64,000 nucleotides of DNA from Spirosoma spitsbergense DSM 19989 (GTDB lineage: Bacteria; Bacteroidota; Bacteroidia; Cytophagales; Spirosomataceae): assembly GCF_000374085.1 (NCBI RefSeq), contig NZ_KB893592.1:1-64000 (forward strand). The letters are read 5' to 3'. Position 1 is the first letter of the stretch. The number at the start of each line of letters is the position of its first letter. Below, piece by piece: positions 16,317 to 47,773 of the stretch. The translations under genes were made by a program, and so were the position numbers. The notes below the pieces were generated by a model. That model ran no database searches and was not told where the DNA came from. It was given only the letters and a program-made list of their open reading frames with translations.

Positions 16317-16409
16317 ATCTTATGGACGATGAAAGCCAAAATTAACCAAAATATGGAACGGCCTGGTAAGTTGAATCAGTAGATTAACGTATTATAACGC
16401 TAAAACGAC

Positions 16410-16417
16410 TAATTTTG
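16410..16417 (+). promoter_or_regulatory. -7 element before the SPOR lipoprotein gene
   Basis: TAATTTTG fits TAnnTTTG and ends 11 bases before the ATG at 16429. No TTTG is found at the normal -33 distance, so the match is partial. Confidence 0.4.
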
Positions 16418-16428
16418 TACGCTATCGA

Positions 16429-17028: not shown

Positions 17029-17106
17029 TTCATGAATTTCATTGGTATACGTTAACTTTGCTTAATTAAGATAATTTTAAGCATTGGTATTGACCTGTTT
17101 AAATAA

Positions 17107-18219
17107 ATGAAAAAAGCACTAATTACCGGAGTCACCGGACAGGATGGGGCCTATCTGGCCGAACTACTGTTGGAAAAAGGATACGAAGTTCATGGGATCA
17201 AACGCCGGAGTTCGCTCTTCAATACGCAGCGTATTGACCACATGTACGAAGACCAGCACGAGAAAAACGTACATTTCATTCTCCACTACGGCGATTTATC
17301 GGACTCGACCAATATTATCCGCATCATTCAGGAAGTTCAGCCCGACGAAATTTATAATCTCGGTGCCATGTCGCACGTGCGGGTGAGTTTCGATGAACCA
17401 GAATATACGGCTCAGGTGGATGGTATCGGAACGCTGCGTATTCTGGAGGCAGTTCGTTTGCTCGGGCTTACTGAAAAAACCCGAATTTATCAGGCGTCGA
17501 CATCGGAACTATATGGCGGTGTGCAGGGCCACGCCCAATCAGAGACAACACCATTTTATCCACGTTCGCCGTATGCGGTAGCCAAGTTGTATGGCTACTG
17601 GATTACCGTTAACTACCGGGAAGCATACAACATGTATGCCTGCAATGGGATTCTGTTCAACCACGAATCGCCACTACGGGGAGAAACCTTCGTAACCCGC
17701 AAAATTACCCGGGCCGTATCCCGTATTGCACTGGGGCTACAGGACAAGGTTTACCTGGGAAACCTTGACTCCCTGCGAGACTGGGGTCATGCGAAAGACT
17801 ATGTAGAGGCCATGTACCTGATTTTGCAACAGGATAAGCCTGAAGATTACGTAATTGCTACCGGCGTTACGACCAGTGTACGTGATTTCGTTCGGATGTC
17901 GTTTGCCGAAATTGGGGTTGAACTTACCTTCAGTGGCGAGGGGGTTTCTGAGGTAGGAACCGTTGCGAGTTCAACGAATCCTGAGTTCCCGGTAGAGGTA
18001 GGGAAAGCAGTCGTTTGCATTGATCCACGTTATTTCCGCCCAACGGAAGTGGACTTGTTACTGGGTGATCCAACCAAAGCAATGACCCAACTGAACTGGA
18101 AGCCGAAGTATGATTTGGCAGCCCTCGTGAAAGACATGATGACTGCCGATATTGCCTTATTCCAGCGCGATCAGCTTCTTTCAAAAAGCGGTCATCAGAT
18201 ATTGAACTACTTCGAATAG
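17107..18219 (+). CDS. gmd: GDP-mannose 4,6-dehydratase
   Basis: A 370-residue extended SDR that converts GDP-mannose to GDP-4-keto-6-deoxymannose, the precursor of GDP-fucose and related deoxysugars of surface polysaccharides. The N-terminal [19 protein letters not shown] and the specific [16 protein letters not shown] are diagnostic of Gmd; the catalytic Tyr-Lys pair is in [12 protein letters not shown], preceded by STSELYG. Length is normal. No fucose synthase gene is adjacent. A TAACTTTG sequence at 17053-17060 may be its -7 box. A strong terminator follows. Confidence 0.95.
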
Positions 18220-22920: not shown

Positions 22921-23160
22921 TTATTTACCGATGTGTTTTTCCAGGTATTCGATAGCCAAACCAACCGTTGAGATTTTTTCAGCTTCGTCATCAGGGATAG
23001 GTAAATTGAACTCTTTTTCAAATTCCATAATCAACTCGACGGTATCGAGCGAATCGGCACCCAGGTCATTCGTGAAACTTGCCTCCGGGGTCACTTCTGA
23101 TTCTTCGACACCCAATTTTTCAACAATGATATTCTTAACTTTTTGTGCAATGTCCGACAT
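22921..23160 (-). CDS. acpP: Acyl carrier protein (housekeeping)
   Basis: A 79-residue acidic four-helix carrier of fatty acid synthesis. The phosphopantetheine attachment Ser37 is in [11 protein letters not shown]. Length and sequence are typical AcpP. It is the first gene of the acpP-fabF-rnc operon. A second, unlike carrier protein is encoded at 43996 in the polyketide locus. Confidence 0.97.
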
Positions 23161-32835: not shown

Positions 32836-32868
32836 AACCCACTCTATCGTTTCTGAGTGGGTTTTTTC
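32836..32868 (+). terminator. Terminator after the NTF2-like gene
   Basis: AACCCACTC (32836-32844) pairs with GAGTGGGTT (32855-32863), followed by TTTT. It covers the first open codon of the next frame (32857), which supports the later start at 32902 for that gene. Confidence 0.85.
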
Positions 32869-32901
32869 GTTTATATTCGGCCGCCCTTTACCCTTGCCAC
32901 C

Positions 32902-35900
32902 ATGCAAATGCACCTACCGTATTACACTCGATTCGGACTACTTTCCAGTCTGTTGTCCCTATTACTTCTCCAATGCTCCCGACTGCCCTTTAACGAGGTA
33001 GCGGTAGTGGGGAGCAATTTTGGGGATGTAGTCCAACAAACCCAGAACCTGACGTTTACCTTCAATAAAAACATTGGCCCTACCAATCAATTTGGCGATT
33101 GGGACTCTACGCAGTACGTGCGCTTTATACCTGCTATTCAGGGAAAATTCAAGTGGACAGCCCCCAACGAGCTAGTCTTCTCGCCCACCAAAGCCCTGGA
33201 CCCGGCCACCGATTACCGCGCCGAACTGACCGACAATTTGCTGAAGCGATCCGATAAAAAAGACCTGAAAATATCGGGCGATGCTATTGCGTTTCACACG
33301 CCTTACCTGCAATTGGCCAGCGTCGAGAACTGGTGGTCGCGGTCGCGCGAAACGGGGCAGCCTGTAGCCAAAACCCGCCTGAACTTTAACTACCCCATTT
33401 CATCGGCAGAGGTGGCCGGCAAGGTAACGGTCACCACCGACGACAAAGCCCTCACGTTGCAAATGGCCCCTGGCGATGCACCAAATACGGTGGCCCTGAC
33501 CCTCACCAATGCCCCGGCGCAGAAGAATGGACAGCCCCTGCTTGTCAGGGTCGACAAGGGGGTGAAAGTACCGAATACGGCTTATGTGAGCAAAGAGGTG
33601 GTTGAGGCAACCAGTACCCTCCCCTCGCGCTTCAAAATTGATATTGCCGATGTGCAAACGAGCTATGAAAACGCGCAGGGCATTATTCGGGTCATTACGA
33701 CGCAAACGTTGCAGGCCGATGGCCGGTTGAGCGCGTTATATACCATCCAGCCAGCCGTTGAAACAACGGCCGAACTGACCGAAAACGGATTTATTATCCG
33801 GGGTAATTTCAACGAGGCTGACACCTACGTGCTGACGCTGACCGACCAGATTCGGGGTGAATTGAGCACCCAACTCGAAGAGCCGGTAACGCGTGACCTG
33901 TTCTTCGGGAAAATGCCCGCCAGCATTCAGTTTACCAACAAAAAGGCGTTGTACCTGTCCTCAAAGGGGGCACATAATGTGGGGCTGAACATTGTTAACG
34001 TACCCAACGTGCAGGTAAAAATTGCGAAGGTCTACGAAAACAATCTCCTGAGTTATTTCCGCAACAACCGCTACGAAGATTACCGGGAAAACGCCAGTGG
34101 CGATTGGGGCCCATCGGGTACGTTCAACTACAGCGACGATGACCAAGGCGACTTAAGTACGGTGCTGGTCAACAAAACCGTTGAAACGGCCGACCTCCCC
34201 AAAGTTCGGGGCGTTTCGGCACTGAACCTGGCCCTGCCCGATGCCAATAATGAGTTCAGGGGTGTCTATCTGGTTTCTGTCGACTCAAAAGATGAAGCCT
34301 ATTTGCAGGCAAATCAATTGGTATCCCTGTCGGATATTGGCTTGGTGGCGCACCAGACCAAAAATGAGGTGTTCGTCTGGGCCAATTCTATTCACACGGC
34401 AGAACCCCTACAGGGAGTTGAGGTAACGCTGGTAAGCAATAACAATCAGTCGGTGTACACGCTCAAAACCGATGGCAGCGGCTTTGTCAAGTTCGACAAA
34501 GTGACCGAGAAAGCCCCCGGTTTCAAGATAGCCCTACTCACCGCCCGAACCAGCGATGACTTCAACTTTCTGTTTTTGCCCGACACGCAGGTCGAAACGT
34601 CCCGATTCGATGTGGCCGGAAAATACGATAATGAATCGGGTTTCGACGCGTTCGTGTATGGCGACCGCGACATTTACCGCCCCGGCGAAACGATTCATTT
34701 TAACACCGTTATCCGGTCGCAAAGCTGGCAGAGCGTGGGCGAAATCCCCGTTCTGATTCGCATCTTAACGCCCAACGGGCGCGAATTACAGGTGTTTCGC
34801 AAAACGACGAACGCACAGGGAGCCGTTACGACAGATGTGCCACTCAGTCCGGCGACTGTAACCGGCAGTTACTCCATCGAAGTATTGAACGCCAACAACG
34901 TGCTACTGGCTTCGCAGTCGGTTAGTGTGGAGGAGTTCGTGCCAGACCGGATCAAGGTGGATGTACTGACTGATAAAAGCACATACAAATCAGGGCAGAC
35001 GATTACACTCTCCGCTACAGCAACGAACCTGTTTGGGCCCCCGGCCGCCGACCGTTCGTACGAGATGGAACTGCAATTGAAGCGGAAAGCCTTCGCGCCC
35101 AAAGGTTTTGAGGAGTACGATTTTGATATATCCAACAGCCAATCGGGGGCCAATGCCGGGAAGGATGATGTTTTCCCGAAAGAAGTCCGGCAGGGGCGCA
35201 CCAACGCCAATGGGCAGGCGACCGAAAAATTCCCAATCCCGGCTCTGTATCAGGATATCGGTTTACTCGAAGCCAAACTGTTCATCACGGTCTTTGACGA
35301 GAACGGCCGACCCGTCAATCGCCTTCGCCGGTTGGATGTCCTCACGCAGGACACGTTCTTCGGAACCCGCCTGCCCGACCGCTACGTAGCCACCAATACT
35401 CCTGTTAGCCCGGAACTCGTAGCCCTCGACCCAGCCGGTACAGTACGGGCTTCAGCCTCGGCGGCTGTTGACGTCGTGCGCTACGATTACCAGACGGTTA
35501 TTGAAAAGGAAAGCAACGGCGGGCAGATAAAATACACCACCAAACGGCGCGAAAAATCGGTTTACAGCAACGTGCTGATGTTCAAAGGCGGCAAAGCCAG
35601 TTTCCGATATGTACCCACCGTTTCGGGTGAATACGAGATACGCGTTCGCCGACCTAACGCTGTTAACTACGCAGCCACCGGCTTTTATGCGTATGGTTAC
35701 GGCAGTACTTCGGCGTCATCGTTTGAAGTAAGTCAGGAAGGACAGGTGCTCATGACCCTCGATAAACCGGTTTATCAAACCGGTGACAAAGCAAAGGTCC
35801 TTTTCAAGGCTCCCTTCGATGGCAAACTGCTGGTAACTGTCGAGCGCAATAGTGTGCTGGAGCAGGTCTGGCTGAAAACCACCAACAAATCCGCCGAATG

Positions 35901-38409
35901 GAGCTTTTCAGTAGGTAGTACCCATCTGCCCAACGTGTACGTAACGGCGACCCTGATTCGGGCCATTGATAACACGAATCTGCCGCTGACGGTAGCCCAC
36001 GGGTTTGCCCCCGTACCGGTGCAGGACGCTGATACAAAACTACCTGTAACTATCACGGCCGCTACGCAATCCCGCTCGAAAACGAAACAGACAATTACCG
36101 TCAAAACGGCTAAGAACGCTCAGGTAACGTTGGCAGTGGTCGACGAGGGGATTCTGCAACTCAAGAACTTTAAAACGCCCGATCCGCACGGATTTTTTTA
36201 CCAGAAACGGGCACTGGAAGTCGGTAGTCACGATCTATACGCCCTGCTTTACCCGGAACTATCGCTGAAGTCCACCTCGAGCGTGGGGGGGGATGGGTAC
36301 GATTTGGAGAAGCGGGTCAATCCGCTCAGCAATGGCCGCGTTCAGTTGGTTGCCCTTTGGAGCGGGATATTGGAGACCGGTTCGGATGGGGAAGCAACAT
36401 TCTCGGTCAATATCCCGCAGTTCTCGGGCGACTTACGTGTGATGGCCGTTGCCTACAAAGACAACGCCTTTGGGTCGGCAAACACAAACATGAAAGTAGC
36501 CGATCCCATTGTCATCAGTTCGGGAGTTCCCCGCTTTCTGACTCCCGGCGACCAACTCGAATTACCCGTCAACCTGAGCAATACGACAAAGCAGGTAGCG
36601 ACCGTTACGACCAAACTGAGCCTGACCGGGCCACTAGTAGCCGACAGCCTCAGTACGCAGAAATTGACCATTCAGCCCGGTCGCGAGAGCCGGGCTATCT
36701 TCCGGATATCGGCAAAGCAGGCAATTGGTGCCGGAACGATTACCATAACGGCCAACGGCCTAAACGAAACGTTTACCGAAAAGACGGAGATTACTGTTCG
36801 CCCGGCGGCTTCCCTGCAAAAAACGACCGTATCGGGTGCTGTAGCCGGTGGAAAATCGCAGACCCTTCAACTGGCCGGAAACCGTGCGACGGACCGTTTC
36901 TTGCCCGGTACGTCAAAAGCCAGCCTTACCCTAAGCCGGTCGCCAGTGGTGCAGTACGGACGGGAATTATCGTACCTGCTGGGGTATCCACATGGCTGTA
37001 TCGAGCAAACAATTTCGAAAGCATTCCCGCAATTATACTTCGCCGATTTGGCCAAACAACTGAATACCAACACGTATTTCGTACGGGCGGGCGACAGCGA
37101 CTTAAACCCGGCCACCAATGTCCGGCAGGCGATCCAGACGGTCGAAAGTTTGCAAACACCCGGTGGCGGATTCAGCATGTGGCCGGGCATGGCCGTGGTA
37201 TCGGGTAGGGCCAATGTAGATAACTGGGCTACAGCTTATGCGCTGCATTTTCTGGCCGAAGCACAGGAAGCGGGTTATGAAGTACGTCCCTCGGTTACAA
37301 CCCAGGCCATCGACTTTTTAACCACGCTCACCAACCGGCCAGCCACCGAAAACGACATTACATTCGACGAAGCCGGTGGTCGCACCTTTCGCAAAGTGGC
37401 CAGCCGGACCAATATCTATGCGCTTTATGCGCTGGCCATTGCGGGTAAACCCAACCGGTCGGCTATGAACTATTACAAACAGAACAGCGGGTTGCTTACG
37501 CCCGATAGTCGGTATCTGCTGGCTTCTACCTTCTTCCGTGTGGGAGACACCCGCAGTTTTTCGGCCCTGCTGCCCAAAAAATTCACTGATAATACAACGG
37601 GCAGACAAACGGCGGGTAGCTACGCGTCGCCCATTCGGAATCTGGCGCTGGTGCTGGATGTATTGGTGGAAACCGATGGCAACAACATTCAAATTCCAAC
37701 CCTGGCCCGGCAACTGGCCGGAGCGCTGAAACAGGCGACTTACCTCAACACGCAGGAGGCTTCCTTTGCGTTTCTGGCGCTGGGGAAGCTGTCCCGTCAA
37801 TCGGCAAACAGCACAGCTACCGCGACCGTTTCGGTAGGGAAAACTGTAGTTGGTGCCTTGAACGGCCCATTGCTAACCATCAAGAGAGTTCCCACAAACA
37901 CCCCGCTCAACCTGGCAGCTCAGGGTACTGGCAACGTGTATTACTTTGCCCAGAGCGAAGGCATCCCGGCAAACGGAAAAATCACCGAAGAATATAACGG
38001 TTTGCGGGTTCGCCGGTCTTACCTCAGCCGGGCTGGAGAACCGCTCGACAACATCCGGCAGAATGATCTGGTCGTGGTAAAGATCACCCTGGCTAGTACC
38101 AACGGACTGACTATTGAGAACGTGGTCGTCACGGATTTACTCCCGGCGGGGCTGGAAGTTGAAAACCCACGCCTGAGTGAGCCGCGTGATATGCCCTGGA
38201 TCCAAAAACCTGCCACGCCCGATTATTTCGACCTGCGCGACGACCGGATTAACTTCTACACGACGGCTACCGGCACCGAAAAATCGTTCTATTACCTGGC
38301 GCGGGCGGTTTCGCGGGGGCAGTTTGTTGTGGGGCCGGTTTCGGCCGATGCCATGTATAACGGGGAATATCGGAGTTATAATGGAGCGCGTATACTAACG
38401 GTGAAATAA
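32902..38409 (+). CDS. Alpha-2-macroglobulin family lipoprotein with thioester motif
   Basis: An 1835-residue envelope protein. The start is placed at ATG 32902; the signal peptide ends in lipobox LLLLQC. MG1-MG2 and later macroglobulin domains fill the N-terminal two thirds (for example the MG2-like DRDIYRPGETIHFN); the alpha-2-macroglobulin core region is VNIPQFSGDLRVMAVAYKD. The thioester motif GCIEQ has its Cys at residue 1366 and the Gln three residues later, so covalent trapping of proteases is possible. A terpenoid-cyclase-like helical thioester domain and a C-terminal receptor-like domain follow. Together with PBP1C it is thought to guard and repair the envelope when proteases or cell-wall attack breach it. 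Confidence 0.92.
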   Translation: MQMHLPYYTRFGLLSSLLSLLLLQCSRLPFNEVAVVGSNFGDVVQQTQNLTFTFNKNIGPTNQFGDWDSTQYVRFIPAIQGKFKWTAPNELVFSPTKALDPATDYRAELTDNLLKRSDKKDLKISGDAIAFHTPYLQLASVENWWSRSRETGQPVAKTRLNFNYPISSAEVAGKVTVTTDDKALTLQMAPGDAPNTVALTLTNAPAQKNGQPLLVRVDKGVKVPNTAYVSKEVVEATSTLPSRFKIDIADVQTSYENAQGIIRVITTQTLQADGRLSALYTIQPAVETTAELTENGFIIRGNFNEADTYVLTLTDQIRGELSTQLEEPVTRDLFFGKMPASIQFTNKKALYLSSKGAHNVGLNIVNVPNVQVKIAKVYENNLLSYFRNNRYEDYRENASGDWGPSGTFNYSDDDQGDLSTVLVNKTVETADLPKVRGVSALNLALPDANNEFRGVYLVSVDSKDEAYLQANQLVSLSDIGLVAHQTKNEVFVWANSIHTAEPLQGVEVTLVSNNNQSVYTLKTDGSGFVKFDKVTEKAPGFKIALLTARTSDDFNFLFLPDTQVETSRFDVAGKYDNESGFDAFVYGDRDIYRPGETIHFNTVIRSQSWQSVGEIPVLIRILTPNGRELQVFRKTTNAQGAVTTDVPLSPATVTGSYSIEVLNANNVLLASQSVSVEEFVPDRIKVDVLTDKSTYKSGQTITLSATATNLFGPPAADRSYEMELQLKRKAFAPKGFEEYDFDISNSQSGANAGKDDVFPKEVRQGRTNANGQATEKFPIPALYQDIGLLEAKLFITVFDENGRPVNRLRRLDVLTQDTFFGTRLPDRYVATNTPVSPELVALDPAGTVRASASAAVDVVRYDYQTVIEKESNGGQIKYTTKRREKSVYSNVLMFKGGKASFRYVPTVSGEYEIRVRRPNAVNYAATGFYAYGYGSTSASSFEVSQEGQVLMTLDKPVYQTGDKAKVLFKAPFDGKLLVTVERNSVLEQVWLKTTNKSAEWSFSVGSTHLPNVYVTATLIRAIDNTNLPLTVAHGFAPVPVQDADTKLPVTITAATQSRSKTKQTITVKTAKNAQVTLAVVDEGILQLKNFKTPDPHGFFYQKRALEVGSHDLYALLYPELSLKSTSSVGGDGYDLEKRVNPLSNGRVQLVALWSGILETGSDGEATFSVNIPQFSGDLRVMAVAYKDNAFGSANTNMKVADPIVISSGVPRFLTPGDQLELPVNLSNTTKQVATVTTKLSLTGPLVADSLSTQKLTIQPGRESRAIFRISAKQAIGAGTITITANGLNETFTEKTEITVRPAASLQKTTVSGAVAGGKSQTLQLAGNRATDRFLPGTSKASLTLSRSPVVQYGRELSYLLGYPHGCIEQTISKAFPQLYFADLAKQLNTNTYFVRAGDSDLNPATNVRQAIQTVESLQTPGGGFSMWPGMAVVSGRANVDNWATAYALHFLAEAQEAGYEVRPSVTTQAIDFLTTLTNRPATENDITFDEAGGRTFRKVASRTNIYALYALAIAGKPNRSAMNYYKQNSGLLTPDSRYLLASTFFRVGDTRSFSALLPKKFTDNTTGRQTAGSYASPIRNLALVLDVLVETDGNNIQIPTLARQLAGALKQATYLNTQEASFAFLALGKLSRQSANSTATATVSVGKTVVGALNGPLLTIKRVPTNTPLNLAAQGTGNVYYFAQSEGIPANGKITEEYNGLRVRRSYLSRAGEPLDNIRQNDLVVVKITLASTNGLTIENVVVTDLLPAGLEVENPRLSEPRDMPWIQKPATPDYFDLRDDRINFYTTATGTEKSFYYLARAVSRGQFVVGPVSADAMYNGEYRSYNGARILTVK

Positions 38410-38529: not shown

Positions 38530-39660
38530 ATGCCGTGTGATGCCGACGTTATTATTATTGGTGGTGGGCTGGCAGGGCTGGTAGCGGGCATTCATCTCTC
38601 ACAGAAGAATTTCCGGGTAATTCTGATTGAGAAGCAGTCCTATCCACATCACAAGGTTTGTGGTGAATACGTATCAAACGAGGTGCTTCCCTATCTCGAC
38701 CAGTTAAGGGTATCGGTCGATACACTCAACCCTTCCCGAATCAACCGGTTTCAATTGAGCACGGCTTCCGGAAAATCTGTAGAAAGTAAACTACCGCTGG
38801 GCGGGTTTGGTGTGAGCCGGTATCGGCTCGATGATTTGCTGTACCAAAAGGCTGTTCTTTCAGGCGTACAGACGATACAAAACCAGGCAGAGGCCGTTCA
38901 GTTTCATGACAATCAGTTTACTGTGGCCACTACCGGCGGGCAAACATATACCGCAAAACTGGTCATTGGTGCCTACGGAAAACGGTCCATATTGGATAAG
39001 CAGTTAAACCGGCCATTCATTCAGCAGGCATCGCCCTGGCTGGGCGTCAAAGCCCATTACCGGGCAGATATTCCTAATGACCAGGTTTCGCTCCATAATT
39101 TCGAGGGGGGTTACTGCGGCCTAAGTCAGGTGGAAGATGGCATCGTCAATGCCTGCTATCTGGCCCATTACAATAGTTTCAAACAGTATAAAAATGTAGC
39201 CGAATTTCAGGAGCGTGTACTGCGGAAAAACCCTTTTCTGAATCGCTTTTTCGCCAGTGCTACCCCTTTATTTGATAAGCCGCTGGTCATTAGCCAGATT
39301 TCTTTCTCAAAAAAACAGCCTGTAGAAAACCATGTGCTGATGAGTGGTGACACCGCCGGGCTTATCCATCCCCTTTGTGGCAATGGCATGGCCATGGCCA
39401 TTCACAGCGCCAAAATCCTGTCTGAACTGATTGAAACGCATTACCAGCCTCATGCCTTCGACAGAGCCACTTTAGAGAAACAATACACCCTTGCCTGGAC
39501 GAATGAATTTAACAAACGACTAACTGCCGGGCGTGCCCTACAGTACGTACTGCAATCGCCTTTGGCCACATCACTCGTGATGCAGGGAGTGCAGCTAACG
39601 CCGGGAATATTACCGCTTATTATCAAACAAACGCACGGAAATCCCTTAGTTGCGGCTTAG
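38530..39660 (+). CDS. FAD-dependent oxidoreductase of the type III PKS locus
   Basis: A 376-residue flavoprotein of the geranylgeranyl-reductase/aromatic-hydroxylase superfamily. The dinucleotide motif IIGGGLAGLVAG is at residues 8-19, CGEYVSNE follows the first loop, and the second FAD motif SGDTAGLIHPLCGNGMA lies near 273-289. No membrane anchor is present. It is the first gene of the locus. By analogy with the Streptomyces srs operon (type III PKS, methyltransferase, flavoprotein) I infer that it hydroxylates or reduces the lipid product. A plain enoyl or isoprenoid reductase role remains possible. Confidence 0.85.
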   Translation: MPCDADVIIIGGGLAGLVAGIHLSQKNFRVILIEKQSYPHHKVCGEYVSNEVLPYLDQLRVSVDTLNPSRINRFQLSTASGKSVESKLPLGGFGVSRYRLDDLLYQKAVLSGVQTIQNQAEAVQFHDNQFTVATTGGQTYTAKLVIGAYGKRSILDKQLNRPFIQQASPWLGVKAHYRADIPNDQVSLHNFEGGYCGLSQVEDGIVNACYLAHYNSFKQYKNVAEFQERVLRKNPFLNRFFASATPLFDKPLVISQISFSKKQPVENHVLMSGDTAGLIHPLCGNGMAMAIHSAKILSELIETHYQPHAFDRATLEKQYTLAWTNEFNKRLTAGRALQYVLQSPLATSLVMQGVQLTPGILPLIIKQTHGNPLVAA

Positions 39661-39701
39661 TAAGTTACCAGGGATACTGCCTCATTAGTTAGACGAATCG
39701 A

Positions 39702-40415
39702 ATGTCATTGAATACCACACAACGCACGTCCAGAGAAGAGATAATGGATGATTTCTCGATGGAAGGCACTGAACTGAAGGAAGCTCTGGATAAAATTGCC
39801 GAGATTAACCAGTGGCTGGGTGGCAATAAAATCACACTTGATGGCATAAAGGCCCTGCTAAAAAATCAGCCGAAGGATAAACCCATTTCCATTCTGGATA
39901 TCGGCTGTGGCAATGGGGATATGTGCCGCGCCATTGCCGACTTCGCCCGGCAGGAAAACCGAACCATCTCGGTTCTGGGCATCGATGCCAACCAATATAC
40001 GATTAGCTACGCCGAAGCCTGTTCTAAAGAGTATCCCTCGATAACCTACCGGGTGCAGGATGTTTTCAGCGAAGCGTTTAAAGCGGTACAGTACGACATT
40101 GCCGTATGTACGCTAACCCTTCACCACTTTTCGGACGAAGCCATTTTGGCTCTGATGAAGTTACTATCGGAACAAGCCAAGCTGGGCGTAGTTATCAATG
40201 ACCTGCAACGGAGTGCAATTCCCTACCGGTTATTTCAACTCATCTGCTTCGTTTTTGGGCTGAACAGAATGTCCAGAGAAGACGGACTGACATCCATTCT
40301 TCGGGGTTTTAAGCGGGCTGACCTGGAGAACTATTCCAGACAGCTGCATCTGAAAGAGTACAGTATCAACTGGCGATGGGCGTTTCGCTATCAATGGATT
40401 ATAAAAAACCTATGA
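39702..40415 (+). CDS. SAM-dependent class I methyltransferase of the PKS locus
   Basis: A 237-residue methyltransferase. Motif I (ISILDIGCGNGDM) is at residues 62-74 and an acidic residue at the end of the second strand (LGIDANQ) binds the SAM ribose; LTLHHFSDEAIL forms the later motif. It belongs to the Methyltransf_11/25-like group that often acts on phenolic or quinone rings. Its stop overlaps the start of the type III synthase as ATGA, so the two are translated in step. It probably methylates the synthase product. Confidence 0.88.
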   Translation: MSLNTTQRTSREEIMDDFSMEGTELKEALDKIAEINQWLGGNKITLDGIKALLKNQPKDKPISILDIGCGNGDMCRAIADFARQENRTISVLGIDANQYTISYAEACSKEYPSITYRVQDVFSEAFKAVQYDIAVCTLTLHHFSDEAILALMKLLSEQAKLGVVINDLQRSAIPYRLFQLICFVFGLNRMSREDGLTSILRGFKRADLENYSRQLHLKEYSINWRWAFRYQWIIKNL

Positions 40416-41464
40416 GTGTACGAATTACAGCAGTAGCGAAAGCATTACCTCAACATTGGCGCGATACGAGTGATATTTTACCTTTTCTGGATGTTTGGCT
40501 GGCCGGGCAGGACAGTCGGTTTCAACGGAAAGTAAAGAAGATATTTGAAAACGCGGCTGTCGACCGGCGGTACTCGGTTATGAGTCCGGAAGAGGTTTTT
40601 GCACAAACTACGTTCGCCGAGAAAAATGCCATCTACGCTCGTGAAGCCATTAAACTGGGCGAGGAAGCCCTGAAAAGCGCGCTGGCAAAAACGACGTGGC
40701 AACTGACGGATATTGACTACCTGATTACCGTGAGCTGCACCGGCATTATGATTCCATCGCTGGATGCGTACCTGATTAACAACTTGCAAATGCGGCAGGA
40801 CGTGGTTCGGCTTCCCGTTACCGAAATGGGTTGCGCGGCTGGCGTGTCGGGTATTATTTACGCCAAGAACTTTCTGAAAGCCAATCCCGGCAAGCGGGCC
40901 GCGTTGATAGCGGTAGAGTCACCAACAGCTACATTCCAGCTGGACGATTACTCGATGGCCAACATCGTGAGCGCAGCTATCTTTGGCGATGGTGCCGCCT
41001 GCGTACTCCTTTCGTCGCATGAAGAAGATACCGGACCGGAAGTGGTAGCCGAAGATATGTACCACTTTTATGATGCTACGAACATGATGGGGTTCGGCCT
41101 GACCAACACCGGTTTGCAGATGATTCTGGACAAAGCCGTGACAGATACCATTGCGGAACATTTCCCGGCTATTATATACCCGTTCCTGGCCAAAAATCAA
41201 CTCAATATCGAGGATATTGAGCACCTTATTTTCCACCCCGGCGGGCGGAAAATCGTGGAAGTCGTGCAGGACATTTTCGGTAAAATGGGGAAGAACATCG
41301 ACGAGACGAAGGAAGTTTTACGAAAATACGGCAACATGTCCAGTGCTACGGTCCTGTATGTACTAGAACAATTTATGGACAAAGGATGTCCTACCGATAC
41401 GTACGGGCTTATGCTCAGTTTTGGGCCGGGTTTTTCGGCACAGCGCGTTTTGCTACGATGGTAA
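40412..41464 (+). CDS. Type III polyketide synthase (alkylresorcinol/alkylpyrone-type)
   Basis: A 350-residue chalcone-synthase-fold enzyme. The start is set at ATG 40412, overlapping the methyltransferase stop; a longer frame opens at 40376 but lies inside that gene. The catalytic triad is Cys141 (EMGCAAGVSG), His275 (FHPGGRK) and Asn308 (YGNMSSATV). The C-terminal GFGPGF-like loop is SFGPGFSAQ. Bacterial enzymes of this class take a long acyl starter, add malonyl units and cyclise to resorcinols or pyrones. The neighbouring carrier-protein genes suggest that the starter arrives on a private ACP. The exact ring type is not predictable. Confidence 0.93.
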   Translation: MSVRITAVAKALPQHWRDTSDILPFLDVWLAGQDSRFQRKVKKIFENAAVDRRYSVMSPEEVFAQTTFAEKNAIYAREAIKLGEEALKSALAKTTWQLTDIDYLITVSCTGIMIPSLDAYLINNLQMRQDVVRLPVTEMGCAAGVSGIIYAKNFLKANPGKRAALIAVESPTATFQLDDYSMANIVSAAIFGDGAACVLLSSHEEDTGPEVVAEDMYHFYDATNMMGFGLTNTGLQMILDKAVTDTIAEHFPAIIYPFLAKNQLNIEDIEHLIFHPGGRKIVEVVQDIFGKMGKNIDETKEVLRKYGNMSSATVLYVLEQFMDKGCPTDTYGLMLSFGPGFSAQRVLLRW

Positions 41465-42255
41465 CCGAATTTGGTCAACATAATTATTGGGCCGTTATCC
41501 TGGGCGGTAGCAAAGGACTGGGACTGGCAACGGCGCAGAAACTGGCGCAGCACGGCATGAACCTTTGCATCGTGCATCGAACCCGAAAAGCAGACCTCCC
41601 CGACGCAGCCAGGGAATTCAGCCGGATGGAAGCGGAAGGAGTCAAGTGTATTGATTTCAATGTGGATGCGACCAGTGCCGAAAAGCGAACGTCCGTTATT
41701 GAAAATTTGCGTGAGCAGATGGGCGGGCAGGGAAAAATCAGGGCGTTGGTTCACAGCATAGCGAAGGGCAACCTGAAACCAATGCTGGCTCAGGAACAAC
41801 CCAGCCTTCAGCACGACGATTTTCAGCTAACCATCGACGCAATGGCCATCAGTTTGTATGACTGGGCAAAAGCACTGGTGATGGAAACTATGTTTGCCCC
41901 CGATGCCCGAATTATTAGCTTTACCAGTGAGGGAAGCACAAAAGCCTGGAAAAATTACGCAGCCGTTTCGGCGGCAAAAGCAGCACTGGAAGCCATTTCA
42001 AGGAGTATTGCGCTGGAGATGGCTCCTTTAGGTATCCGGGCAAACTGCCTTATGGCAGGGGTTACCGATACAGCATCACTACGAATGATTCCTGATTCTG
42101 CTACCTTGCTGGCTCACAGTCAGCAACGAAATCCGATGGCCCGGTTAACTACGCCCGGTGATGTGGCGAACGTAGTTTATTTACTTTGTAAAGACGAAGC
42201 CGCCTGGATTAACGGTACGGTTATTCCGGTTAACGGTGGTGAACATCTTCAATAA
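41458..42255 (+). CDS. Enoyl-ACP-reductase-like SDR of the PKS locus
   Basis: A 265-residue SDR with start at ATG 41458, overlapping the synthase stop by 7 bases; the frame opens earlier (41386) inside the synthase. ILGGSKGLGLA binds the cofactor. The active site is Tyr167 and Lys174 (YAAVSAAK), spaced Y-x6-K as in enoyl-ACP reductases FabI/FabL rather than the Y-x3-K of ketoreductases; HSIAKGNLKPM also fits the enoyl-reductase family. I therefore predict reduction of trans-2-enoyl-ACP. A carbonyl reductase role cannot be excluded. Confidence 0.82.
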   Translation: MVTEFGQHNYWAVILGGSKGLGLATAQKLAQHGMNLCIVHRTRKADLPDAAREFSRMEAEGVKCIDFNVDATSAEKRTSVIENLREQMGGQGKIRALVHSIAKGNLKPMLAQEQPSLQHDDFQLTIDAMAISLYDWAKALVMETMFAPDARIISFTSEGSTKAWKNYAAVSAAKAALEAISRSIALEMAPLGIRANCLMAGVTDTASLRMIPDSATLLAHSQQRNPMARLTTPGDVANVVYLLCKDEAAWINGTVIPVNGGEHLQ

Positions 42256-42709
42256 ATTTTACGTGCAGCCATTCGACTATATCCTCTTAAAACTACCCTA
42301 CAGCAAACCGTTCCTGTTTGTCGATACCCTCCAGGTTGTTACGGAGAATGGCGTGGAAGGGCAGTACACCTTTCCAGCCGATTCGTCTTTTTATGCCGGA
42401 CATTTTAATAAAATGCCCGTTACACCCGGTGTTATCCTGACGGAGGTAATGGCGCAAATTGGGGTCGTTTGTCTGGGTATTTTTCTGCTGAATGACTCCC
42501 CAACCGACGAACTGGAAGTCGCCCTGACTGCCACACAGATTGATTTTTATAAGCCCGTTTTTCCCGGAGAAACCGTTACGGTTCGGTCAAGTAAAGACTT
42601 TTTCCGGTTTCATAAGTTAAAATGCAAGGTAGAGATGCTAAATGGTAAGGACGAACTGGTATGCAGGGGCACCATTGCCGGTATAATGAAGTCGAAATCA
42701 CATGCGTAA
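42236..42709 (+). CDS. FabZ-like 3-hydroxyacyl-ACP dehydratase of the PKS locus
   Basis: A 157-residue hot-dog-fold protein. With the first GTG (42236) as residue 1, the catalytic His56 is in YAGHFNKMPVTPG and the Glu70 in LTEVMAQIG, the FabA/FabZ pair. GTG codons at 42236, 42239 and 42263 are all possible starts; the first two overlap the preceding SDR stop. It should dehydrate 3-hydroxyacyl-ACP made on the locus-specific carrier protein. The 3' end overlaps the ketosynthase start by 8 bases. Confidence 0.85.
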   Translation: MVNIFNKFYVQPFDYILLKLPYSKPFLFVDTLQVVTENGVEGQYTFPADSSFYAGHFNKMPVTPGVILTEVMAQIGVVCLGIFLLNDSPTDELEVALTATQIDFYKPVFPGETVTVRSSKDFFRFHKLKCKVEMLNGKDELVCRGTIAGIMKSKSHA

Positions 42710-43988
42710 TCGGGTTGTTATTACAGGTTTGGGAGTCGTATCGCCTAATGGGGTAGGCGTTCCCGCCTTTCTGGAGGCCATCAAAGCGGGGCAGAGCGGT
42801 ATTACATTCCGTCAGGAACTGGCCAATTTGAAATTCTCCTGTCAGATTGGCGGCATTCCGCCCGTTACGGAAGCGCACAAGCAGCAATACTTCACTGAGT
42901 TACAGCGTAGAGGACTGAACAGCAGTGGCATCATATACGGGGTTATGGCGGGCATGGAAGCCTGGCAACACGCTGGCCTTCCAGCGGCTGGCGATCCAGC
43001 GGCCACCAATGAGCCAGACTGGGACTCGGGCATCATTTTTGGAACTGGCATTTTGAGCGTCGATAAGTTTCGGGAATCAATCTACAAAGTCGATGAGGGG
43101 CAGGTAAGGCGGCTGGGCAGCACAGTTGTACTGCAAATTATGACCAGTGGCGTGAGTGCTTACTTAACCGGCATGACCGGCTGTGGCAACCAGATTAGTG
43201 CCAACTCGTCGGCCTGCGCTACGGGTACTGAAGCCCTCCTGCTTGCGTATGAACGCATAGCCAGCGGCTCGGCCAAACGGATGCTGGCGGGTAGTTGCAG
43301 CGACCACGGCCCTTATATCTGGGGTGGATTCGATGCCATGCGCGTACTGCCCTACCAGTACAACGACGCGCCCGAACGGGCATCGAGGCCGCTTAGTGCT
43401 ACCGCCAGCGGCTTTGTACCCGGCAGTGGCGCGGGGGCACTGGTGCTCGAATCACTGGAAAGTGCGCTGGAACGGAAGGCAACTATCTACGCCGAGGTAC
43501 TGGGCGGACATATGAACTCCGGTGGTCAGCGGGCAGGGGGTACCATGACAGCGCCCAACCCGGTGGCGGTGAAAAAATGCATCGAAACGGCATTGAAGCA
43601 GACGGGTGTTCGGGCCGAAGAGGTTGATGTCATTGACGGTCACTTAACAGCTACCGTAAAAGACCCGGCCGAAGTGACTGCCTGGTGTGAGGCCCTACAG
43701 CGACAGGGGCCAGACTTTCCGTACATTAACTCGCTCAAAGCTATGGTGGGCCATTGCCTGAGTGCTGCCGGAAGTATCGAATGCGTGGCTTCGGTGCTGG
43801 AATTATACAACGGGTTCATTTATCCGTCCGTCAACTCGGAGGATATCCACCCGGATATTATCGCCCGGATTGATGCTGGCCGAATTCCCCGGCAATCCAT
43901 TCAAAAAGAGATTACAATTGTAGCAAAAGCCAATTTTGGTTTTGGCGACGTAAATGCGTGTGTACTTTTAAAGAAGTTTCAATCCTAA
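42702..43988 (+). CDS. FabF-like beta-ketoacyl synthase of the PKS locus
   Basis: A 428-residue ketosynthase distinct from the housekeeping FabF at 21517. The catalytic set is Cys172 (SSACATGTEA), His314 and His351 (MVGHCLSAAGS). The usual THGTGT context of the first His is changed to DGHLTATVKD, which marks a separate subfamily. It should elongate acyl chains on the ACP encoded 7 bases downstream. A chain-length-factor role is unlikely because the Cys is kept. Confidence 0.9.
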   Translation: MRNRVVITGLGVVSPNGVGVPAFLEAIKAGQSGITFRQELANLKFSCQIGGIPPVTEAHKQQYFTELQRRGLNSSGIIYGVMAGMEAWQHAGLPAAGDPAATNEPDWDSGIIFGTGILSVDKFRESIYKVDEGQVRRLGSTVVLQIMTSGVSAYLTGMTGCGNQISANSSACATGTEALLLAYERIASGSAKRMLAGSCSDHGPYIWGGFDAMRVLPYQYNDAPERASRPLSATASGFVPGSGAGALVLESLESALERKATIYAEVLGGHMNSGGQRAGGTMTAPNPVAVKKCIETALKQTGVRAEEVDVIDGHLTATVKDPAEVTAWCEALQRQGPDFPYINSLKAMVGHCLSAAGSIECVASVLELYNGFIYPSVNSEDIHPDIIARIDAGRIPRQSIQKEITIVAKANFGFGDVNACVLLKKFQS

Positions 43989-43995
43989 ACAGACA

Positions 43996-44253
43996 ATGCA
44001 GACAAAAGAAGAATTGATTACTACGCTCAAAACAATTGTGAAACCCTACGTTCAGGATGAGCAGGCATTTGAGCATGTTACCGAGGAAACCGACTTTATC
44101 CGTGATTTAAAGATTAACTCGGCCAATCTGGTCGACATTGCCCTGGATGTGGAGGAAGCCTACGACATCGAAATTGATAATGAGTCAATGGAAAAGATGC
44201 TCACGGTTGGAGCCGCCATTGAGATCATTCAGGAAAAGTTAGCGGCAAAATGA
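43996..44253 (+). CDS. Dedicated acyl carrier protein of the PKS locus
   Basis: An 85-residue acidic carrier protein. The phosphopantetheine Ser42 lies in LKINSANLVDIAL, where the usual DSL is replaced by NSA, so it is clearly unlike AcpP at 22921. It is flanked by a ketosynthase and a phosphopantetheinyl transferase, and its stop overlaps the transferase start as ATGA. It most likely carries the chain that primes the type III synthase. Confidence 0.9.
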   Translation: MQTKEELITTLKTIVKPYVQDEQAFEHVTEETDFIRDLKINSANLVDIALDVEEAYDIEIDNESMEKMLTVGAAIEIIQEKLAAK

Positions 44254-44870
44254 TCGGCAACGACATTGTTGACCGGGCGCAGGCAAAACGGGAAAGTAAC
44301 TGGCAGCGAAAAGGGTTCCTGGATAAGTTGTTTACCCCATCCGAACAGCAGCTTATCCAGCGAGCCAGGGATCCTGAGTGCCTGGTCTGGACGTTGTGGA
44401 GCATGAAGGAAAGTGCCTATAAAGCAACCACCCGAAAAACGGAAAAGCGCGTCTTCAACCCAACAAAAATAAGCTGTACCCTCGAAATGTGGTCTGATGA
44501 AGCCGTCGATGGATTCGTGGTTTATGAAGAAGAGTACCGGACAAGATCGTTAATTACGCCGGATTACATTGCCAGTGTAGCCTTTTCAGTACATACGCTC
44601 CCCATTCCCAACCAGGTAATCATCCCCTTTGAACGCATCGATTACCACCACCAGTCGACTCAACTTCGTACCAGCGTTCTGGAACACTACGCTACTGTTT
44701 CGCCCGTTTCGGAAAAGAAGCTACAGGTTTGCAGCGATAAAAATGGCAGCCCTATTCTGGTCATTAAAGACCCGTTGCAGGAAACCGTTTGCATACCCAT
44801 CAGTATTAGTCATCATGGTCATTATGGCGCTTTCAGTATCGCCCATTCTGTTTTTATGCTCCCTGATTGA
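44250..44870 (+). CDS. 4'-phosphopantetheinyl transferase superfamily protein
   Basis: A 206-residue enzyme that loads the pantetheine arm from CoA on carrier proteins. The motifs GNDIVD (residues 3-8) and WSMKESAYK (about 50-58) supply the magnesium-binding Asp and Glu and the catalytic Lys. Length lies between AcpS and Sfp types. Translational overlap with the ACP gene argues that it serves that carrier protein, whose unusual NSA site may need it. Last gene of the locus. Confidence 0.88.
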   Translation: MIGNDIVDRAQAKRESNWQRKGFLDKLFTPSEQQLIQRARDPECLVWTLWSMKESAYKATTRKTEKRVFNPTKISCTLEMWSDEAVDGFVVYEEEYRTRSLITPDYIASVAFSVHTLPIPNQVIIPFERIDYHHQSTQLRTSVLEHYATVSPVSEKKLQVCSDKNGSPILVIKDPLQETVCIPISISHHGHYGAFSIAHSVFMLPD

Positions 44871-44999
44871 CCTGAAAGATCATCCTTAAAACCACCTTCC
44901 TTTACGGGTACTGGACTAACATTTACCCTACTTCATTAGTTGTATAAGTTAAAGCAGCCTTGGCAAAGAAGTCAGTTTATCATTAAATTATACAACGTT

Positions 45000-46433
45000 A
45001 TGAAAAGGAAAATATGGGTAGTAGGAGCTTTACTGGCAGTGATGGTCGGTTTTTCGTCGTGTGCATCCACAGAACGCTGGTTGTATGGAAACTCGGAAAA
45101 CAGCAGGGAAGACATCGTACAGCGGGATCGCGACAGCGAATCACGCAATTCGGCCAGTAATGAAGCGGATAAGATATTCAACCGCAAAAGTAGTAATAAC
45201 GATAACGAGCGGGTGAGCAGCAGTAACTCGCGAAACAACAATAGTTCGTATCGAAATCCATACCGGTATTCGGACGATCAGGATAGCCGGATGAGTTATC
45301 GGAGCGATACCTATAACAACCCCTATCGGTCGGGTGATCGTCAGAGTTCTTACTCCAGCAACGACCGGTACAGCAATAGCAACCGATCAAATGACAGCCG
45401 GTACTACGATGACCGCAACGCTAACAATGACCGCTATGATAACCAGTCATACGATCAGCGAAATTCATACAATGACGGGTACAACGACAGCCGCAATTCG
45501 TCTAACAGCAGCAACCGTTCCTACGGTGACCGTAGCCGGTATGACGACCGCCAATCCAATGATCGGTATTCGAACAACAATCAGAACGATCAATATTCCC
45601 GGAATTCGTACAACAACAACCGCTCGTCCGATGACCGGAACATGAATAACGACCGGAATTCGTACAGTACCAATGACCGTTCGTATAACGACCGCTACGA
45701 TAACCAATCTTATAACAACAACCGGGACTCATACCGCAATGATGGTTATTCCAACCGTAACAGTGGGAGCATGAACGATTACCGGCAAAGGGACAGTCGT
45801 GATAATCGCAGCTACGATTCAAGCCAGAGCAATAGTCGTGATAACCAAAGCATGAATAATGACCGGAACTATAATCGCGACAACCGGAACATGAATGACG
45901 ACCGGAATACTCGTCAAATGGATAACCGGAATCAGAACGATTCATCCAGCCGGTACAATAGCCAGAACAATTACTCTTCCGACAGCCGCGATAACAGCCG
46001 TCAGGGTGATTATAGTAACCTGTCGGGTAGCCGTCGGGAAAACAACGACAGAAGCAACAATCGGGATAACAACTCGAACCAAACCTACACCTATCGTCAG
46101 AATGACGGCAACAATGGCAACCAGTCCAATAACCAGTCATCTGATCGGGACCGTCGTGATCTAAGCGATAAAATATCGGCTCAGATGGACAAGATTGACC
46201 AAAAACTGACCGAAGTAAAGCAGGACGTAAAAGACGAAAGCCGCCGGGATAAGAAGAAGCGCGAAGATATGGTTAAAGAACTGCAGGATAAGCGCAGCCA
46301 GTTATCCGATGCCTACTATAAGGTGCAGCGCGCTACCGTTAATACCTTCGATGATGTGAAAAGAGAGACCAGCAAAGTCGTCGACGATATTGGTGACTGG
46401 TTCAGCAAGACTGCTGACAAGGTGAGTAAGTGA
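45000..46433 (+). CDS. Asn/Ser/Asp/Arg/Tyr-rich disordered lipoprotein
   Basis: A 477-residue lipoprotein with start at ATG 45000; the frame opens at 44940 but the later Met gives a clean signal peptide with lipobox GFSSC. Residues about 40-375 are built almost only from Asn, Ser, Asp, Arg, Tyr and Gln, with recurring units such as DRYDNQSYNNN and SRDNRS, and are surely disordered. The last 90 residues differ: a charged coiled-coil-like helix (QKLTEVKQDVKDESRRDKK) and an end with a DDIGDWFSKTADK pattern. No known domain is seen. A surface, matrix or stress role is possible but unproven. A strong terminator follows. Confidence 0.82.
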   Translation: MKRKIWVVGALLAVMVGFSSCASTERWLYGNSENSREDIVQRDRDSESRNSASNEADKIFNRKSSNNDNERVSSSNSRNNNSSYRNPYRYSDDQDSRMSYRSDTYNNPYRSGDRQSSYSSNDRYSNSNRSNDSRYYDDRNANNDRYDNQSYDQRNSYNDGYNDSRNSSNSSNRSYGDRSRYDDRQSNDRYSNNNQNDQYSRNSYNNNRSSDDRNMNNDRNSYSTNDRSYNDRYDNQSYNNNRDSYRNDGYSNRNSGSMNDYRQRDSRDNRSYDSSQSNSRDNQSMNNDRNYNRDNRNMNDDRNTRQMDNRNQNDSSSRYNSQNNYSSDSRDNSRQGDYSNLSGSRRENNDRSNNRDNNSNQTYTYRQNDGNNGNQSNNQSSDRDRRDLSDKISAQMDKIDQKLTEVKQDVKDESRRDKKKREDMVKELQDKRSQLSDAYYKVQRATVNTFDDVKRETSKVVDDIGDWFSKTADKVSK

Positions 46434-46451
46434 GTAGCATTTCTGATACTG

Positions 46452-46486
46452 AAAGGGGTTGATTCGGACGAATCAACCCCTTTTTT
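46452..46486 (+). terminator. Terminator after the disordered lipoprotein gene
   Basis: AAAGGGGTTGATTCG (46452-46466) pairs with CGAATCAACCCCTTT (46469-46483) with T6 after it, a strong intrinsic terminator 18 bases past the stop. Confidence 0.92.
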
Positions 46487-46517
46487 GTTGAACCAGTCGA
46501 AAAAACCACCCGCTATC

Positions 46518-46525
46518 TATCTTTG
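46518..46525 (+). promoter_or_regulatory. -7 element before the gamma carbonic anhydrase gene
   Basis: TATCTTTG matches TAnnTTTG exactly and ends 4 bases before ATG 46530. Transcription would start close to the ATG, giving a very short or absent leader. No TTTG at the normal -33 distance. Confidence 0.4.
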
Positions 46526-46529
46526 CGGT

Positions 46530-47039
46530 ATGGCACTAATCAAATCTGTTCGGGGAAACCAGCCTCAGTTTGGCGAAAACTGCTGGTTTGCCGAGAACGC
46601 TACCATCGTGGGTGAGGTAATCATGGGGCGCGACTGCACGGTATGGTTCAACGCCGTTATCCGGGGCGACGTTAACACAATCACTATCGGCGACCGGACC
46701 AACATTCAGGACGGAGCTGTTATTCACTGCACCTACCAGCGGTTTAAAACCACCATCGGCAATTCTGTTTCCATTGCGCATAACGCCGTCGTTCACGGAT
46801 GTACCGTGGAAGATAACGTGATGATCGGCATGGGAGCTATTGTCATGGATGGGGCCATTATCGGGACGGGCAGTATTGTGGCAGCAGGAGCCATCGTTAC
46901 GCAAAACACGATAGTGCCACCCGGCAGCATCTACGCGGGCAATCCGGCCCGTTTTTTAAAAGCGGTTTCGCCCGAACAGGCCGACATCTTCGCCCGGACT
47001 GCCAATAATTATGTGATGTACGCCGAGTGGTTCAAATGA
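46530..47039 (+). CDS. Gamma carbonic anhydrase family protein
   Basis: A 169-residue left-handed beta-helix protein; start set at ATG 46530 (MALIKSVRG) rather than 46485, which lies in the terminator region. Hexapeptide repeats run through the chain, with the zinc-ligand pattern His in GAVIHC, then SIAHNAVVHG (two His). These correspond to the three His of gamma carbonic anhydrases (Cam/CaiE/PaaY group). Many bacterial members bind metal but have weak or unknown activity, so carbonic anhydrase function is inferred only. Confidence 0.88.
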   Translation: MALIKSVRGNQPQFGENCWFAENATIVGEVIMGRDCTVWFNAVIRGDVNTITIGDRTNIQDGAVIHCTYQRFKTTIGNSVSIAHNAVVHGCTVEDNVMIGMGAIVMDGAIIGTGSIVAAGAIVTQNTIVPPGSIYAGNPARFLKAVSPEQADIFARTANNYVMYAEWFK

Positions 47040-47155
47040 GTGTATGGTATACGGTTTATCGTTGATTAAACTAACCATACCATACCCCAGGCATTTAATC
47101 AGCTACGGTCTATGCGAAGCCCCATAAACCTAAAACCGTAAACCCCTTTTCGCTT

Positions 47156-47773
47156 ATGGATGACTTTCTGATTTACCTACGCCTGGGGTTTGACCACATC
47201 ACAGATCCCAGGGGGTACGACCATATTCTGTTCGTTATTGCGCTATGTGCGGTATACACTCTTCAGGAGTGGCGGCAGGTACTGATTCTGGTTACGGCCT
47301 TCACCATTGGGCACTCCATTACGCTGGCTCTGGCTACGCTGCAACTCATTCATTACGAAACCGCCCTCGTTGAACTCCTCATTCCAATTACTATTTTAGT
47401 TACCGCTATTTCCAATTTCTTCTTTCGGGACAAGAAAAAAAGGGGATTTCCATCCGGCAAACTTCCCGGTCGTTCCTGGCGCTATGGCCTAGCCCTATCC
47501 TTCGGCCTGATTCATGGCATGGGTTTTTCTAACTACCTACGGAGCTTGCTGGGCCGGGAAGCCGATATTATCGAGCCACTGCTGGCGTTTAATATTGGCC
47601 TGGAAATAGGCCAGCTGGTTATCGTAACGCTGATTCTTTTAATCGCTTACGGGCTGCTCGATATCCTCAAAACCAGCCGTCTGCGCTGGACGCTTATCGT
47701 ATCGGGTATCGTTGCAGGAATGGCTTTATCCCTGATTATAAACAACGCGTATCTGAGTGATTTAATAAAGTAA
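47156..47773 (+). CDS. HupE/UreJ-family membrane protein
   Basis: A 205-residue inner-membrane protein with about six hydrophobic helices. The pattern RLGFDHITDPRGYDHILFV near the start, TIGHSITLALA and GLIHGMGFS match the HupE/UreJ_2 family, whose His and Asp residues in the helices suggest nickel or other metal transport. No hydrogenase or urease gene is present here, so a metal cargo is only a guess. It stands alone between the gamma carbonic anhydrase gene and the M1 peptidases. Confidence 0.82.
   Translation: MDDFLIYLRLGFDHITDPRGYDHILFVIALCAVYTLQEWRQVLILVTAFTIGHSITLALATLQLIHYETALVELLIPITILVTAISNFFFRDKKKRGFPSGKLPGRSWRYGLALSFGLIHGMGFSNYLRSLLGREADIIEPLLAFNIGLEIGQLVIVTLILLIAYGLLDILKTSRLRWTLIVSGIVAGMALSLIINNAYLSDLIK

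Follow-up and report, generated by a model that had tools for sequence, protein, structure and literature searches.

A conserved Bacteroidota operon that joins a type III polyketide synthase to a predicted private acyl-carrier module

In Spirosoma spitsbergense DSM 19989 (genome of 7.5 Mb), a stretch of 64,000 nucleotides that we call the window holds an operon of eight intact open reading frames (ORFs), all on the + strand and spanning positions 38530–44870, in which a type III polyketide synthase (PKS) stands beside a set of proteins resembling those of fatty acid synthesis (FAS). Our results show that this gene order is more than chance and that the operon is a natural unit. They also lead us to propose, with little more than even confidence, that the synthase receives its starter from a discrete type II FAS-like module of its own and gives a phenolic (alkylresorcinol-type) or derived quinone lipid. 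The linkage of the genes suggests that the starter comes from an acylated acyl carrier protein (ACP), and each reaction, the hand-off from ACP, the type of ring and the product are predictions from gene content. The original prediction, made on the letters of the window alone, had described eight same-strand genes with five overlapping junctions; this description holds, since five of the seven junctions overlap, namely those of methyltransferase (MT) and type III PKS, type III PKS and short-chain dehydrogenase/reductase (SDR), SDR and dehydratase (DH), DH and ketosynthase (KS), and ACP and phosphopantetheinyl transferase (PPTase).

A search for the same arrangement across Bacteroidota, which the original prediction had called for, found it in many places. 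We examined 63 loci, two of which (L008 and L043) are one identical stretch. Besides the window, 57 unique loci carry the synthase clade, all of them in the order flavoprotein–MT–type III PKS–(SDR)–DH–KS–ACP–(PPTase), with four cut by contig ends. All eight genes are present in 23 of these loci (the flavoprotein gene of L011 is cut), 24 are without the SDR only and 5 without the PPTase only; the remainder are the four cut loci (L007, L009, L012 and L052) and one with a split KS (L046). The SDR is thus missing from 25 of the 57 loci, counting L009, which is cut, along with the 24 operons that are otherwise complete, and its presence requires four changes on an operon tree of 54 rows that leaves out the duplicate L043 and the four incomplete or split loci. 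No PPTase relative occurs in the stretches of 5 of the 53 loci uncut by a contig end (L142, L143, L145, L147 and L148), so another cellular PPTase must serve the ACP of these operons. Because the flanks vary from one locus group to another, the unit ends at the limits that the original prediction had set for it.

The linkage of synthase and module is what carries our proposal. In a phylum-wide sample of 395 genomes, the synthase clade occurs in 33, and the KS clade (E up to 1e-100) in 38: every one of those 33 and 5 more that lack the synthase. As controls, we picked by hand 21 loci whose type III PKS does not belong to the clade (20 in relatives and one on contig C58 of the S. spitsbergense genome), and none of these stretches of 12–18 kb carries a relative of the KS, DH, SDR, ACP or PPTase at E 1e-8. 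Relatives of both the flavoprotein and the MT are found in 6 of the 21 control loci, which we refer to as trios, and the MT alone in one. It is because every synthase genome has the KS and no control locus has the module that we favor a private acyl supply, and the private acyl-carrier system of the original prediction is in this respect well supported by comparative genomics. One could instead suppose that the KS, DH, SDR and ACP are a spare FAS set for general membrane lipids and that the neighborhood of the synthase is incidental. Every component does resemble FAS II proteins, and related modules stand without the synthase in 5 of the 38 KS-bearing genomes; however, the order is fixed in 57 other loci with differing flanks, the controls are without the module throughout, the operon genes co-vary and the genome has a separate primary fabF/acpP pair, and we judge this explanation improbable. 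The housekeeping-like pair lies in the same window on the - strand, with acpP at 22933–23160 and fabF at 21520–22767. It is this acpP copy outside the operon that exceeds the TIGR00517 cut-off for ACPs, and the operon KS is 33% identical to the primary FabF.

Co-variation of the operon genes points the same way. In Mantel tests, the correlation with the synthase ranged from 0.66 (SDR) to 0.89 (flavoprotein and DH), each with p 0.005, the minimum for 199 permutations. Since such tests cannot tell co-inheritance from host relatedness, we added a comparison with FabF. Across 30 genomes, with the SDR left out, pairwise identities of the operon genes correlate with one another at r 0.65–0.86 and with those of primary FabF at 0.24–0.58.

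The gene families named in the original prediction agree with our Pfam and NCBIfam profile searches, with the ACP identified by NCBIfam matches below cut-off. Among the NCBIfam scores viewed, at most 25 per protein, all those of operon proteins fall under the curated cut-offs, which marks these proteins as divergent members of their families rather than housekeeping enzymes. The residue counts given below take in the window and the duplicate locus L043 and, for module genes, also loci without the synthase. The flavoprotein (38530–39660; 376 amino acids, aa) is a flavin adenine dinucleotide-dependent protein of the geranylgeranyl-reductase/UbiH-like kind and a predicted ring hydroxylase or oxidase; it is over the cut-off for PF01494 (55.8 bits) and under that for GG-red-SF (112.9 bits; cut-off 158.8). 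The class I S-adenosylmethionine (SAM) MT (39702–40415; 237 aa) is likewise over cut-off for PF13649 (50.1 bits) and under it for NF004851 (133.9 bits; cut-off 243), and its SAM motif D-G-G is kept in 57 of 57 rows. The synthase (40412–41464; 350 aa) has both domains of the type III PKS superfamily, Chal_sti_synt N and C (PF00195, 82.3 bits; PF02797, 65.4 bits; cut-off 27), and the Cys-His-Asn triad is intact in 59 of 59 rows. Its start is most likely at 40412, as judged from alignments of relatives and an ATGA overlap with the MT gene; the start at 40376 in the mechanical ORF list is too early.

The remaining five genes make up the module. The FabL-like SDR (41458–42255; 265 aa), a predicted enoyl-ACP reductase, has as its closest solved structure the enoyl-ACP reductase 3oic and keeps Y-x6-K in 37 of 39 rows, the exceptions (L131 and L141) being unrelated SDRs outside the operon. 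Its listed start at 41386 is also too early, and relatives and the overlapping stops favor 41458. The FabZ-like hot-dog DH (42236–42709; 157 aa, GTG start) exceeds the cut-off for PF07977 (42.6 bits) and keeps its catalytic His and Glu in all 62 rows. In the FabF-like beta-ketoacyl-ACP synthase, or KS (42702–43988; 428 aa; PF00109, 86.8 bits; PF02801, 85.9 bits), Cys-His-His is present in the window copy; the Cys is found in 63 and both His in 60 of 64 rows, with the gaps due to three truncated copies and one split copy. The dedicated ACP (43996–44253; 85 aa) scores 43 bits against TIGR00517 (cut-off 70.45), gave no match in the Pfam search and has its phosphopantetheine Ser in 58 of 58 rows. 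The PPTase (44250–44870; 206 aa) matches PF01648 (51 bits; cut-off 25), as do two other proteins of the genome, and keeps the motif Glu and Lys in 53 of 53 rows.

From these genes, a pathway can be drawn in which the PPTase would activate the private ACP, and the KS, DH and SDR (as enoyl reductase), together with the housekeeping malonyl transferase and ketoreductase, would build or lengthen an acyl chain on it. The Cys of the type III PKS would receive the chain from the ACP, and the enzyme would add malonyl units and close the ring; the MT would then methylate the ring and the flavoprotein hydroxylate or oxidize it to give a methylated phenolic or quinone lipid. In clusters without the SDR, either another enoyl reductase would be used or the chain would stay unsaturated. 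Parts of this scheme have precedents, as seen in the available portions of the papers concerned. Gcs, SCO7671, ArsB and ArsC are type III PKSs reported to use acyl-ACP (PMC6274091), co-expression of MT, oxidoreductase and type III PKS from Gimesia gave a singly methylated alkylresorcinol (PMC10896814), and actinobacterial operons with the same three kinds of gene make polyketide quinones (PMC9927152).

The predicted structure of the synthase, with a predicted local distance difference test score (pLDDT) of 92.2, best matches PKS11 and then CylI, whose PDB entries hold an acyl-N-acetylcysteamine thioester (acyl-SNAC), a beta-ketoacyl-SNAC and the resorcinol product. This bears on a scheme in which the ring comes first, where the synthase would make a small aromatic acyl starter from malonyl-CoA, as DpgA does, and the KS, DH, SDR and ACP would extend it to an aryl fatty acid or polyene. 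DpgA, the dihydroxyphenylacetyl-CoA synthase, is the best NCBIfam match of the synthase (NF042429, 186.3 bits), and a FAS-like KS/DH/ACP system has been proposed for the flexirubin aryl polyene, according to the portion of PMC3992019 available. We nonetheless hold this route to be quite unlikely: the score is far under the cut-off of 425, the eight genes include no hydratase of what we take to be the DpgB/DpgD type, the operon has no ketoreductase, which a polyene would need, and the synthase fold is nearest to the acyl-using PKS11 and CylI.

Modules related to that of the operon also occur beside other genes in the five KS-bearing genomes without the synthase. In L124 (about 9200–18066) and L125, a related SDR-DH-KS-ACP-PPTase module (43–47% identity to the operon in the SDR and 52–53% in the KS) adjoins, in divergent orientation, genes of the dar type, known from dialkylresorcinol and flexirubin loci, where the ring is formed by DarB and DarA rather than by a type III PKS. 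A family scan of L124 found DarB (634.8 bits; cut-off 550), DarG and DarH over their cut-offs and an ABC-2 permease, and a neighbor is presumably DarA, a name given to it without a family match. It is possible that in these loci the module is the chain supplier for dialkylresorcinol synthesis. In L126–L128, a related module without the PPTase, and in two of the three also without the SDR (kept in L127), adjoins a GNAT-like protein and a family 2 glycosyltransferase (family scan in L127); no ring-forming gene was recognized beside it, with families scanned in L127, and this is perhaps a third use of the module. Among the operon proteins, neither the synthase as a DarB ketosynthase (NF053539, 25.6 bits; threshold 550) nor the SDR as the flexirubin polyene SDR FlxB (NF053542, 84.1 bits; threshold 340) reaches its threshold.

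Another possibility is that two products are joined late: the synthase would start from ordinary acyl-CoA, and a second acid, made by the KS/ACP module, would be esterified to the phenol. Flexirubin, in the same phylum, is a precedent for such a joining of a polyene acid with a dialkylresorcinol (PMC3992019, in the part available), and in L124 the related module adjoins DarB, DarG and the DarH acyltransferase. However, we found no acyltransferase or ligase among the conserved operon genes, with flanks compared across loci and mostly outside the family scan, and we consider two joined products an unlikely outcome.

Several points weigh against our proposal that the operon's own module feeds the synthase on the way to a phenolic or quinone lipid. 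There is no ketoreductase or malonyl transferase among the eight operon genes, so that the acyl supply needs enzymes of primary FAS. Co-variation was compared with a single housekeeping gene, FabF, and the association of the module with dar genes is confined to two loci among the 38 KS-bearing genomes. The oxidation step given to the flavoprotein is a guess, because the role of the oxidoreductase is not established in the available part of the planctomycete work (PMC10896814). Finally, the residue at the position of ArsB Trp281 is Phe in the synthase and gives no verdict on the ring type.

We had considered the Trp281 position as a predictor of resorcinol or pyrone formation and dropped it, since PKS11, which makes alpha-pyrones, has Trp there and CylI, which makes a resorcinol, has Leu. 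By an equivalence read from alignments and the available part of PMC6274091, Phe occupies this position in 59 of 59 clade rows and Trp in 8 of 8 controls. Positions near it are Pro/Ala/Thr in 38 of 38 clade rows versus Cys/Leu (or Ile)/His in 8 of 8 controls. The A1 Lys positions 40 and 43 are invariant in 38 of 38 clade rows; among the controls, Lys is present at 40 in 4 of 8 and at 43 in none.

The flavoprotein leaves room for a further reading, in which it is a halogenase and the product a halogenated phenolic lipid. Its predicted structure (pLDDT 88.5) matches flavin halogenases and hydroxylases about equally in Foldseek. The top matches are the halogenases ChlB4, Mpy16 and PltA, with a TM-score relative to the query (TMq) of 0.72–0.82, yet 3-hydroxybenzoate 6-hydroxylase follows closely at 0.74–0.79. 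Flavin-dependent halogenases have the motif WxWxIP. This was not seen in the flavoprotein, where the stretch taken by eye to correspond reads GGYCG or GGYGG plus another residue in all of the operon rows viewed, 31 of 33; in all 6 rows of the trio flavoproteins, the stretch matched in the same way is related and has no Trp. A halogenase seems highly improbable to us.

Comparison with other Bacteroidota synthases sheds light on the origin of the operon. The ratio of between-group to within-group path lengths, operon versus trio (21 clade and 6 trio rows), is 1.5 for the flavoprotein, 1.9 for the MT and 7.1 for the synthase. In a tree of 21 of the 59 clade rows, all 6 trio rows, 10 of the 15 other controls and six solved synthases, the operon clade groups with THNS, PKS11 and CylI (support 100/99), apart from the trio and solo synthases of Bacteroidota. 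The approximately unbiased (AU) test rejects a single clade of all Bacteroidota synthases (p-AU 0.007), a result to be read with caution, as the program warns of long branches and the tested group was named after the tree had been seen. With that caution, the operon synthase is not of the same lineage as the trio synthases. Replacement of the synthase in the operon is likely, not proven. Since the tree and the AU test set the synthase apart while the flavoprotein and MT are of an ordinary kind, an older flavoprotein–MT pair may have acquired both the synthase and the acyl module.

The operon may also have moved between families. Synthase identity is 73% among genomes outside the family of Spirosoma and 71% between those and Spirosoma, as against 79% and 65% for FabF, which points to transfer between families. 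Inside the family, inheritance looks vertical, with the Spirosoma rows forming one group next to the g20 rows at full support. The G+C content of the operon equals that of the window (0.4996 and 0.5007), so composition shows no sign of recent import. Taking these observations together, we offer a broader scenario, to which we give somewhat less than an even chance. In it, the operon would stand for a new class of type III polyketide system, and the discrete type II cassette of KS, DH, enoyl reductase (ER), ACP and PPTase would be the obligate supplier of starters to the type III PKS, installed with a foreign synthase on an older flavoprotein–MT pair and shuffled in evolution between two unrelated chemistries of ring formation, type III PKS and DarA/DarB; the product would be a phenolic or quinone lipid whose chain the cassette determines, and roughly one in twelve of the Bacteroidota sampled (33/395) would have it.

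Several known systems share features with the operon. A flavoprotein or oxidoreductase, an MT and a type III PKS are adjacent in the hid (hidABC), planctomycete and pkqABC/srs operons, as in Spirosoma. In the available portions of PMC10896814 and PMC9927152, the products of such trios are methylated alkylresorcinols or alkylquinones, and no KS/DH/ACP/PPTase module is described for them, in contrast to the Spirosoma operon. The gene order differs as well, MT–oxidoreductase–PKS in the trios versus flavoprotein–MT–PKS here. The analogy to srs drawn in the original prediction holds for the kinds of genes; it does not extend to the synthase, which is on another branch than the synthases of the Bacteroidota trios (the sequences of HidC, PkqA and SrsA stand outside this comparison).

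The usual teaching is that type III PKSs work without an ACP; to our knowledge, the known ACP-fed ones rely either on a type I partner or on a general ACP. The operon has no gene for a large type I FAS/PKS partner, unlike ars, cyl and Steely; in ars (ArsA) and Steely, a large type I enzyme builds the chain, whereas in Spirosoma this would fall to discrete type II proteins that come with an ACP and a PPTase of their own. The hand-off proposed here is otherwise like that in Dictyostelium Steely, where an ACP-bound chain goes to a type III PKS, as the title of the PDB entry has it. It is also like that in Azotobacter, where a dedicated FAS/PKS passes an ACP-bound chain to the type III PKS (ArsA to ArsB/ArsC; PMC6274091, in the part available). 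In the cyl/cab/mer systems, a carrier-borne chain goes to a type III PKS that makes a resorcinol, and CylI is a near structural match of the Spirosoma synthase. According to the available part of PMC8086630, type I PKS modules, together with a free-standing ACP and an AMP-binding enzyme, build the cylindrocyclophane chain; the Spirosoma operon has neither a type I PKS nor an AMP-binding gene. Koreenceine work (PMC6498172), to judge from the portion available, concerns a type II PKS of Pseudomonas and is not relevant to the operon.

In the main texts of open-licence papers, supplements aside, we came across no account of the eight-gene set, nor of any type III PKS equipped with a discrete type II module of its own. 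The class of ACP-fed type III PKSs is already known, and the operon would be a variant of it that we did not find in print. Available parts of antiSMASH surveys give type III PKS clusters as 9% and 10.74% of Flavobacteriaceae clusters, which may include the operon, and one type III PKS cluster reported in Spirosoma foliorum may be of its kind; the parts available give no closer analysis of these clusters.

The original prediction had spoken of Cytophagales, for which it knew of no characterized product of this gene set; the system is not peculiar to that order: 29 of the 33 matches in the phylum sample (two of the 33 are also among the relatives described next) fall in one other family of the same class. 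Named synthase matches include Flavobacterium, Gramella, a Chitinophagaceae and a Saprospiraceae metagenome-assembled genome (MAG). Among 198 genomes of relatives, the synthase clade, here meaning at least 71% identity (among the matches listed, no other exceeds 35%), occurs in 18 of 36 in the genus, including S. spitsbergense itself, 3 of 85 in the rest of the family and 0 of 77 in the rest of the order. The synthase of Spirosoma luteum DSM 19990 (L008) is 97% identical to that of the window. If the proposal is true, a compact operon that brings its own ACP, KS, DH, ER and PPTase would offer a simple way to study recognition between type III PKS and ACP and the setting of chain length, and the natural operons with and without the SDR would be a built-in test of the module's role. 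As widespread as the operon is, Bacteroidota may commonly contain its lipid without its having been noticed; that it carries electrons, as the polyketide quinones of Actinobacteria do, is a guess.

Some loci depart from the common pattern in detail. L007 has a second methyltransferase in the operon, and extra ORFs lie inside the operon in L138 (174 aa, between synthase and DH at the SDR position) and L133 (125 aa, between DH and KS). In L046 (genome G016), the frames of the KS and of a large upstream gene are both fragmented, which looks like assembly indels rather than decay. The SDR-less operon L009 is on a contig filed under a MAG of Candidatus Nitrotoga, a proteobacterium, and this contig is probably mis-binned Bacteroidota. 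The S. spitsbergense genome has two type III PKS matches, and the second, on C58 (L063, about 2472–3599, - strand), is of the ordinary Bacteroidota kind, with no other operon genes in the 12 kb covered. In the window, the operon is flanked by genes at 32857–38409 and 44940–47773, an arrangement shared with a subset of Spirosoma genomes and not others. We take the flanking genes to encode a 1850-aa alpha-2-macroglobulin-like protein, a gamma-carbonic-anhydrase-like protein and a HupE-like protein, and a low-complexity ORF rich in Asn, Ser, Asp and Arg lies there as well.

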